Shown here: piece after piece, positions 2,930 through 5,239 of the stretch
Numbering within the stretch: the first letter of the stretch is position 1
How the letters are laid out: every line of letters starts with the position of its first letter
NCBI GenBank assembly: GCA_000992325.1
Contig: LBTZ01000010.1
Coordinates: 1 to 39,885 of the forward strand
Reading direction: 5' to 3'
DNA from: Parcubacteria group bacterium GW2011_GWD2_38_11
Lineage (GTDB): Bacteria > Patescibacteriota > Minisyncoccia > Moranbacterales > GWC2-37-73
Length of the DNA stretch: 39,885 bases
Notes under the pieces: generated by a model
The model's input: only the letters and a program-made list of their open reading frames with translations
What the model was told of the DNA's origin: nothing
Databases searched by the model: none
Translations under genes and position numbers: made by a program

Positions 2930-5239
2930 TTAATACCCTATTAGTTTCCTAAATTCTTCTTCTGTTAAAACATTCACTCCGAGCGCGACTGCTTTGTCGT
3001 ATTTGGATCCTGCGTTTTCACCAGCTACAACATAATCTGTTTTTTTGCTGACGGAAGATGAAACGCTTCCACCCTCTCTCCTTATCATATCTTTTGCCTC
3101 GTCCCTTGTAAAGCCGCTGAGCTCTCCAGTCAAAACAAAGACGAGTCCATACAATCGATCACCAGTCATCAGCAATCCAGAATCCAAAAATTGAACTCCG
3201 TTTTTTTCCATCCGAAAAAGTATCTCCAGGTTATCTTCGTTGCTAAACCAACTTACCAAACCTTCGGCTGCCTTCTCACCAATCCCCTTTATTTCCAGCC
3301 ACTGATTATATTTAACAGCTGGAAAATATCTTGCGACATCTCCCGGATTGTTTATCTTATGATTACTGATTACAGATGACAGATGACTTCCCACCAACAC
3401 TGCAGTTTCCTCCCCAATATATCTAATCCCTAGAGAAAATAGAAACTTTTCTACAGTCAACTTTTTGCTTTTTTCAATCGATTCAATCAATTTTTCCGCT
3501 GATCTTTCAGCAAATCTTTCCAGTGGCTCAAGATCGCCAATTTTCAAATCAAAAATATCAGCAAAATTAGAAATAATTCCCTCGCTCATAAGTCTTTCGA
3601 CAATACTTTCTCCAAAGCCAACAATGTCAAAACCTTTGCGACTCACAAAATGAATAAGCTTTCCCATTTCAACAGCAAAACATTTTGGATTTGTGCAATA
3701 ATGCGCCGCCGATGACTGACCACTGACCACTGACAACTCATCACTTTTTGAATTTTGTTTTTTATTGTTTGTTGTAAGTTGTTTGTTGTTTGTTGTTTGT
3801 TGTTTGTTGTTTAATATTTGTCTTTCTACTTTTCCCCCACAAATTGGACACCTTTCAGGCATTTTAAAGTGCTTTTCTTTGCCATTTCTAAGGTTTTTCA
3901 TCACAGAAACAACCTCTGGAATGACGTCTCCAGCTTTGTGGATGACCACAGTATCCCCAATCCGAACGTCAAGCCTATTTATCTCATCTTCATTGTGAAG
4001 GGTCGCGCGACTCACCACGGAGCCTGCCACGAGCACTGGGCGCAGGTGTGCAACTGGCGTAAGCGCTCCAGTGCGCCCAACTTGCACCTTAATATCCTCA
4101 ACCACAGTTGTCACCTGCTGGGCTGGAAATTTATATGCAACCCCCCAACGCGGAGATTTTCCAGTGTATCCAAGAGCATCTTGAATAATTTTCGAATTAA
4201 CTTTAATAACAATTCCATCAATTTCATAATCCTGCTTGTCTTTTTTCTTGGTCCAACTTTCATAAAAATCCTGAATTTCTTGGACTGAAGCACAAAGTTT
4301 AAATTCTTTATTTACCTTAAAGCCGAGACTTTTCAGCAGGTTAAGTTCTTCTATTTGAGTTTCGGGTATTTCTAATTCAACATTCTGAAATAAAACATTG
4401 GGGTCATCAGTCATCAGTAATCGGTCATCAAATTCACCAGCGCTATTATTGATCGTTGACTGATTACTGGTGACTGGTGACTGAATTTCGTCTATATCAT
4501 ATATAAATGAATCAAGCCGACGACTCGCGGCAACTTTTGGGTCAAGCTGGCGAATCGAGCCCGCGGCAGCATTTCTAGTGTTAGCAAAAACAGCTTCGCC
4601 TTTTTCTTGGCGTTCCCTGTTAATTCTCTCTAATTCTTTTTTACTGAGCCAGCACTCACCCACCACAATCGCATCAATCTTTTCATTCAACTCCAAAGGC
4701 ACACTTTGAATTGTTTTAAGATTACTTGTCACATCCTCACCCACTGTTCCATCGCCCCTTGTCGCTCCGGAAACAAGCACGCCATTTTCATATGTCAAAA
4801 TCATTTTCAGTCCATCAATTTTCATTTCAACGCAATAATCCAATTCACCACTAACAACTGACAACTTACCACTTTTTGCATTTTGTTGTGAGTTATTTGT
4901 TGATCCTTGTTGTATGTTGTTTGTTGTATGTTGTTTGTTAATAAGCTCCTCCCAGGCCACCAAGCCTTCAAAATCAAAAATATCGTCAAAAGACCATTGT
5001 TGCTTGAAATGACGCACTTTTTTAAAAGCCTTCATTGGCTCAGCGCCAACTCTCTGCGTTGGACTAGTGGGTGAAAAAAGATCTGGGAATTCTCCCTCCA
5101 GCCTAATAAGCTCCTCGAAAAGTGAGTCATAAGCTTCGTCTGAAAGTTGAGGTGCATCTTGAATATGATAAAAATAGCGATGCCTGTCTATTTCCGCTCT
5201 CAATTTTTCTATTCTTTTTTTTGCTTCTTTTTTATCCAT
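2930..5239 (-). CDS. ligA: NAD+-dependent DNA ligase with repeat-derived insertions
   Basis: This 769-aa protein seals nicks during replication and repair using NAD+. Order: Ia domain ([20 protein letters not shown]), adenylation domain with catalytic Lys140 in [11 protein letters not shown] fold, four-Cys zinc finger (CPICGG ... CTNPKC), HhH region and BRCT domain ([16 protein letters not shown] to the end). It is about 100 residues longer than typical LigA (~670). The surplus sits in low-complexity Asn/Gln/Ser inserts such as [15 protein letters not shown] before the active Lys and [16 protein letters not shown] inside the zinc finger, encoded by words that elsewhere fill spacers. Start: ATG 5239 is chosen because the longer frame (MCYNID) only translates the promoter TGTGCTATAAT. 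The transcript is probably leaderless. Confidence 0.96.
3711..3818. repeat. spacer-type tandem repeat inside ligA zinc finger
   Basis: Runs of TTGTTTG and CACTGACCACTGACAACT-type words occur in frame between the two Cys pairs of the LigA zinc finger. The same vocabulary fills intergenic spacers at 7964-8000, 11040-11172 and 27133-27256. The coding frame is preserved and yields an Asn/Gln/Thr/Lys-rich loop followed by [10 protein letters not shown]. Confidence 0.85.
4401..4485. repeat. spacer-type repeat inside ligA (adenylation domain)
   Basis: GTCATCAGTCATCAGTAATC and TGACTGATTACTGGTGACTG words are inserted in frame and translated as [12 protein letters not shown] ... DRLLMTDD. The segment interrupts the ligase between the IYDIDEI strand and the conserved LKSLGFKVN segment. 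Confidence 0.75.
4843..4940. repeat. spacer-type repeat inside ligA before the active-site lysine
   Basis: In-frame ACTAACAACTGACAACTTACC and TTGTATGTTGTTTGTTG words are translated as an Asn/Gln/Ser-rich loop ending [10 protein letters not shown], directly before [10 protein letters not shown]. This accounts for the active Lys being near residue 140 rather than ~115 as in E. coli LigA. Confidence 0.8.

Follow-up and report, generated by a model that had tools for sequence, protein, structure and literature searches.

The NAD-dependent DNA ligase (LigA) encoded in the window, the stretch of 39,885 nucleotides analysed here, carries in-frame inserts built of 7-nt words. As judged from their sequence, these inserts are probably gene-less copies or fragments of dispersed hairpins, related to a family of mobile hairpins that bear a gene of the IVP/S23 type. 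The host is a tiny uncultured bacterium. The window is contig C10 of its 936-kb Patescibacteria genome, and the named relatives of its LigA belong to Candidatus Moraniibacteriota. The gene and the sites within it that we studied are as follows.

2930–5239, minus strand: ligA, NAD-dependent DNA ligase of 769 aa, with heptad-coded inserts
4841–4948, minus strand: S1 insert, residues 98–133, AAC-type heptad element, partner of S3, just upstream of the catalytic KIDG
4367–4489, minus strand: S2 insert, residues 251–291, CAGTCAT-type heptad hairpin (fold z = −4.6)
3713–3817, minus strand: S3 insert, residues 475–509, AAC-type heptad element, between the two zinc-finger cysteine pairs
3350–3391, minus strand: S4 loop (HhH), CAGTCAT-type words, ordinary length
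3155–3187, minus strand: S5 loop preceding BRCT, short heptad-like words, ordinary length

An earlier note on this DNA had described LigA as about 100 residues too long, and indeed the protein has 769 amino acids compared with 671 in E. coli LigA (2OWO). The alignment to the E. coli protein breaks at residues ~100–130, 252–289 and 474–511, which correspond to S1, S2 and S3, and comparison with E. coli and 20 relatives identified these as three real in-frame insertions. The note had counted at least four places with extra residues. S1, S2 and S3 stand, whereas S4 (14 aa, against 12–14 aa in the shortest loops of relatives) and S5 (11 aa, against 11–13 aa) are of normal length. Thus, the HhH site shows no gain in length, and the proposed locations hold for the region before the catalytic lysine (S1) and the zinc finger (S3) but not for the HhH region. 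The S4 loops of the window (3350–3391) and of the related genome G004 are of ordinary length and made wholly of heptad words, which may reflect an insertion offset by a deletion or a conversion in place. An AlphaFold model, run on a 25-sequence alignment, predicted the catalytic body well and gave pLDDT values below 50 at residues 112–130 (S1), 256–287 (S2), 478–506 (S3) and 688–692 (S5). When S1 and S3 were folded alone, they did no better than shuffles (z −0.1 and +2.2) because their arms pair imperfectly, and hairpin folding was dropped as a sole criterion. The set of LigA sites and most search thresholds were picked after the data were seen.

Word and lag statistics were obtained from a 407-kb sample (43%) of the same genome. 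The main words were of the CAGTCAT, AACAACN and AATTTNN types. In keeping with the statement that several word families meet in one essential gene, ligA holds both AAC-type (S1 and S3) and CAGTCAT-type (S2 and S4) words. Under a fourth-order Markov model, TTGTTTGTTG was observed 27 times against 7.3 expected, CAGTCATCAG 15 times against 1.2 and ACTGACAACT 8 times against 1.8. The three words of the earlier note exceed this expectation 4 to 13 times, and the word count that it had proposed came out in its favour across the 407 kb. The 14-nt double words CAGTCATCAGTCAT and AATTTCCAATTTCC occurred 9 and 10 times, respectively, where none was expected. In the same sample, 8-mers repeating at a lag of 7 nt numbered 505, compared with 17 in fifth-order Markov sequence, and no other period had a similar excess, save 14 and 21. 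Among 106 heptad arrays (one of them a run of N), 67 were intergenic, in the spacers that make up 15% of the DNA, and about 30 lay within ORFs. Pooling of 20 LigAs of the Moraniibacteriota family showed lag-7 repeats at 6.4% of loop positions and 0.02% of core positions, a 300-fold excess in the loops.

Many of the arrays consist of two opposed arms that are complementary word for word, often with five pairs and two free bases per word. Outside ligA, the window contains the following arrays and hairpins, for which no strand is assigned.

2811–2943: full-length heptad hairpin of AATTT type in the ligA–gatC interval, with an overlap into the end of ligA; 90% identical to 2400–2533
2400–2533: further copy of this AATTT-type element, in the gatC–gatA interval
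787–902: AAAATTG-type hairpin element in a spacer; 86% identical to L082 14207–14327
7966–8001: AAC-type heptad array in a spacer
11043–11173: AAC-type opposed heptad arrays (11043–11093 and 11133–11173) in a spacer
27130–27256: AAC-type heptad hairpin in a spacer, homologue of the LigA S3 insert
30435–30551: AAAATTG-type heptad hairpin in a spacer

S3 matches S1 at 81% over most of its length, and homologues of S3 were found in spacers at C29, C3, C37 and 27186–27238 of the window. By this similarity, S1 and S3 each represent a copy of the same element, which is also present in spacers. The spacer copies of the S3-related element often end directly 5′ of a start codon. A second family comprises full-length copies of 120 nt with a conserved non-heptad loop, two of which flank gatC beside ligA. 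Since such full-length copies occur at separate loci, they were dispersed and not made locally. The unit is an inverted-repeat hairpin element with two arms of 7-nt words, and not a free word as had been supposed; gene-bearing versions hold an IVP gene in the loop. The earlier claim that the ligA inserts use the words of the gene junctions was borne out by the words in spacers and by the S3 homologue at 27130–27256. The idea of a spread regardless of coding status held in that spacers and coding sequence contain the same repeats, but it is hairpins with full-length copies elsewhere, and not free words, that spread.

The gene-bearing form in the window is described by two features.

33464–33990, minus strand: IVP-bearing element with arms GTCAAAACGTCTAACGTCAAAAGGTT and TGACGTTTGGACGTGTGACGTTTGGACGTTAAGAC flanking the IVP gene; adjoins trpS
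33500–33850, minus strand: 23S_rRNA_IVP/S23 (PF05635/TIGR02436) four-helix bundle gene

This element (33464–33990), an inverted repeat whose heptad-like arms contain AACGTC words, was the lead that linked heptad hairpins to IVP. The closest solved relatives of its protein are 2GSC and 2RLD. The former, listed as XCC0516 of Xanthomonas, is presumably the same protein as the toroidal S23p pentamer of PMC4990558. IVP genes were present in all 19 genomes of the family (1–16 matches each), in 86 of 145 genomes of the phylum and in none of 14 control genomes, and the IVP loci examined lie between protein-coding genes. For each locus, the upstream arm was scored against the reverse complement of its own downstream arm, with permuted pairings as the control. 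Opposed heptad arms surrounded IVP genes at 88 loci in three sets (p<5e-5 for each, by permutation): the mean score was 18.9 at 39 loci, 18.1 at 20 new loci and 15.0 at 29 phylum-wide loci, compared with at most 13.2, 13.7 and 10.9 when permuted. A score of at least 15 was reached by 67% of the first 39 IVP loci, compared with 4.2% of 359 control ORFs. A weak-score IVP match at C34 had no heptad arms in the stretch read.

Next, the words were compared with the IVP sequences. A first Mantel test on all 39 IVPs was weak, its value being reached in 27 of 2000 permutations. In a set of 47 representatives, words were shared by IVPs whose identity was 50% or higher (cosine 0.194 compared with 0.074; 0 of 5000 permutations), a contrast chosen after the result of the first test; vertical descent may be part of the cause of this link. 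The arms of an IVP element at C5 of genome G005 form a gene-less hairpin in G004 (C5:57494–57582), and gene-less hairpins share arms with IVP-bearing elements. Thirty LigA loops matched IVP arms above shuffles, and for 8 the best-matching arm came from the same genome; these are not all independent. Within 90% of this genome, none of the IVPs has arms of the two word types, AAC and CAGTCAT, that make up the LigA inserts; the nearest AAC-type IVP match was in the sister species G002 (L212) of the same genus. IVP copy number accounted weakly for heptad density (rho 0.46, p 0.046, small samples). Among the control ORFs, other small orphan genes were also seen between inverted arms, namely GxxExxY-like genes, named by eye (L083 6943–7333, minus strand, and L137 8348–8795, plus strand; coordinates on the strand given), and in G005 a Y1/REP-type transposase, likewise named by eye (L130 14831–15416, minus strand), is flanked by GTAGAGACGCGATTAATCGCGTCTCTAC palindromes. 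IVP may thus be one of several residents. The Y1 transposase family (Y1_Tnp, PF01797) is absent from G000–G004, which include the own genome, and it was rejected as the driver for that reason.

Comparison of close relatives revealed turnover. G004 and G005 (~92% identical around ligA) differ at orthologous spacers and LigA loops, where the heptad or hairpin sequence of one is unrelated to that of the other, and G017 and G018 (94% identical) differ in the same way. In the G004/G005 stretch, 24 sites were replaced in this manner; at 15 of them one or both species have a heptad or structured segment, and at 6 both do. The IVP element at C5 of G005 (454 nt) and another at C13 of G004 (473 nt) each have ~54 nt in their place in the other species, and these IVP-free counterparts hold unrelated AT-rich sequence. 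No target-site duplication or clean empty site could be defined for the heptad elements in the sister-species comparisons; clean empty sites are not definable because the sister holds unrelated sequence there. An 84-nt hairpin in the C8 region of G005 (concatenated minus-strand 27107–27190) is absent from G004 and has a possible TATTAT target duplication. The S2-type insert is common to G003, G014 and, partly, G017 and G018, and the S4-type occurs in G003, suggesting that these inserts are in part inherited or that the sites recur. Sharing of inserts by relatives at the same sites, which the earlier note had set against its own reading, thus applies in part to S2 and S4 and not to S1 and S3.

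The elements are not confined to ligA among host genes. Intragenic arrays were found in RecG, PrmC (three), ArgS, TsaE, RsmA, PcrA and CCA transferase, and further in FolC, GltX, TarA, a Mur ligase and a U32 peptidase. The RecG array lies in the window.

29275–29309, plus strand: AATTTCC heptad array within recG (KNFQFPISNFQSN)

In intragenic arrays, stop triplets per 100 nt numbered 3.7 on the coding and 7.7 on the opposite strand, compared with 8.2 in intergenic arrays, in agreement with the proposal that inserts are tolerated when in frame; a per-array sign test was only suggestive (15 of 21, p 0.08). These data support the view that genes retain heptad repeats only if the reading frame is left open. 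Because 7 is not a multiple of 3, a heptad that contains no stop gives one cyclic 7-residue peptide in every frame, here SVISHQS and NFQFPIS, so that the LigA inserts become disordered linkers. Such a frame-independent heptapeptide was described by MacGregor for TAACTGA (LSVISYQ; PMC4679880).

These observations suggest the following model. Each element is made of two opposed arms of word-for-word pairing 7-nt words around a short loop, and gene-bearing members share this architecture, with the gene of an IVP/S23 four-helix bundle in the loop. Elements would enter spacers and, rarely, genes, and an insertion in a gene would last only with an open frame and at a surface-loop site. The putative driver of this movement is IVP, which might bind its heptad hairpin and promote its copying or insertion. 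Gene-less hairpins would depend on IVP and be moved in trans, and heptad units would later change by slippage. A broader version, which is tentative and to which we give somewhat less than even weight, is that IVP/S23 proteins are trans-acting factors of a Patescibacteria-wide class of mobile hairpins, recognising 7-nt words, and that the derivatives without a gene remodel spacers as well as the surface loops of essential enzymes. IVP is not among the known transposases, and we know of no catalytic activity for it.

A different, rather unlikely account is that the hairpins are spread by a host process, such as template switching, recombination of taken-up DNA or slippage at palindromes, and that IVP is cargo or a passenger settling in them. 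It would fit with the fact that no transposase is tied to the elements and Y1_Tnp is missing from the own genome, that a GxxExxY-like protein and the Y1 transposase of G005 also lie between inverted arms, and that no target-site duplications were seen. However, a random passenger would not be expected to have words that track its sequence across genera, or arms that are ~16 times commoner at its loci than at control ORFs.

Accounts that do without dispersal fare worse. Local replication slippage, expanding chance heptads in tolerant spacers and loops in the manner of simple-sequence repeats, would explain why heptads dominate and why unit numbers differ between arms and copies. It leaves unexplained that many loci hold full-length copies whose non-heptad loops are conserved, that there are two opposed arms and that orthologous sites in sister species have unrelated elements; we consider it improbable, and as the sole process it is refuted by the dispersed homologous loops. 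Least probable by far is that the LigA loops are fast-evolving disordered linkers whose heptad look reflects compositional chance or ancient inheritance. The loop sites are common to the whole family, and the S2 and S4 word types recur in relatives, as this would predict, but the 300-fold lag-7 excess of loops over core and the same words in spacers do not fit, and the loop excess together with the words above Markov expectation refutes it. The reading that we prefer is that of IVP-related hairpins.

The earlier comparison with cyanobacterial heptameric repeats and Rickettsia palindromic elements (RPE) was apt. RPE occur in genes (PMC3767692, PMC10969869), and like them the present elements are palindromic repeats of ~100–150 bp found in spacers and in frame in many unrelated protein genes, with orthologues tending to have inserts at the same place. 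RPE form families of fixed consensus, whereas our elements have variable heptad arrays as arms and include gene-bearing versions. The TAACTGA heptamers of Beggiatoaceae, cyanobacteria and Bacteroidetes (PMC4679880) share the 7-nt unit, nearly the same word (TCAGTTA compared with CAGTCAT), positions near start codons, a frame-independent peptide (LSVISYQ compared with SVISHQS) and stops in one orientation only. They are direct repeats of one word, mainly at gene ends, in contrast to the many words, hairpins and mid-gene sites in housekeeping enzymes here, where direct TAACTGA repeats are not among the main words (CAGTCAT, AACAACN and AATTTNN instead). IVP is known from rRNA intervening sequences (IVS), with a suggested role in mobility (PMC4990558), and from rRNA insertions of CPR bacteria (PMC11270868). 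An inverted-repeat stem around an IVP gene is common to the 23S rRNA IVS and our elements, and the size is similar (428 nt in Coxiella, 454–473 nt here). Unlike the IVS, our IVP elements are scattered among protein genes, with several in each genome, and they have heptad arms as well as relatives that lack the gene. This IVS-like trait, an IVP ORF between inverted repeats, is present at 33464–33990 and in the three locus sets and absent from the LigA inserts, which carry no gene. Borg tandem repeats (PMC9879509) likewise change fast, lie in spacers and genes and create disordered regions, but their in-gene unit lengths are always divisible by three, compared with a unit of 7 and hairpins here. 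REP/RAYT and bacterial MITEs (PMC3116915, PMC3733652), small non-autonomous hairpins with a gene-bearing partner, resemble our hairpins, for which the IVP-bearing elements are candidate partners, and opposed arms in the form of terminal inverted repeats without a transposase gene are a MITE trait. Unlike REP/RAYT, the own genome lacks a Y1 transposase and the arms are heptad arrays.

Each part has a precedent, namely RPE, heptamers, IVP in IVS and IVP in CPR rRNA. In the literature searched, which covered only a minority of subscription papers and preprints, we found neither heptad hairpins in Moraniibacteriota nor a link between IVP and heptads, nor any system that unites heptad arms, a dispersed IVP gene, words specific to an IVP clade and in-frame entry into housekeeping genes. 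Decades ago, the IVS ORF was suggested to act in mobility (PMC4990558, PMC11270868), and PMC4990558 treats as open whether IVS elements move and which function their ORF has. If the trans-acting reading is true, it would be the first proposed role for the orphan IVP family. To our knowledge, neither IVP/S23 proteins nor heptameric repeats have been given a function in the decades since they became known, and tying IVP sequence to heptad words opens both to testing. The finding also accounts for extra, fast-changing loops in essential Patescibacteria enzymes, and it cautions against taking the spacers and loops of these genomes by default for conserved regulatory or functional sequence.

Repeats of other kinds were noticed as well. 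A 68-nt (CTGCCTAC)n hairpin of period 8 (L078 10574–10641) is present in G017 and cleanly absent from G018, without a target-site duplication. Non-heptad palindromes, GTCATCCTGA/TCAGGATGAC and GTCATTCCCG, form a separate family in the same spacers (L065 3271–3453 and 7703–7903; L082 3722–3852). A DPHLSRVLDILSQGEKK-type repeat is present in several tandem copies in the LigA zinc finger of G011 (L072, S3) and also in G003 and G015, another non-heptad element family occupying the S3 loop.
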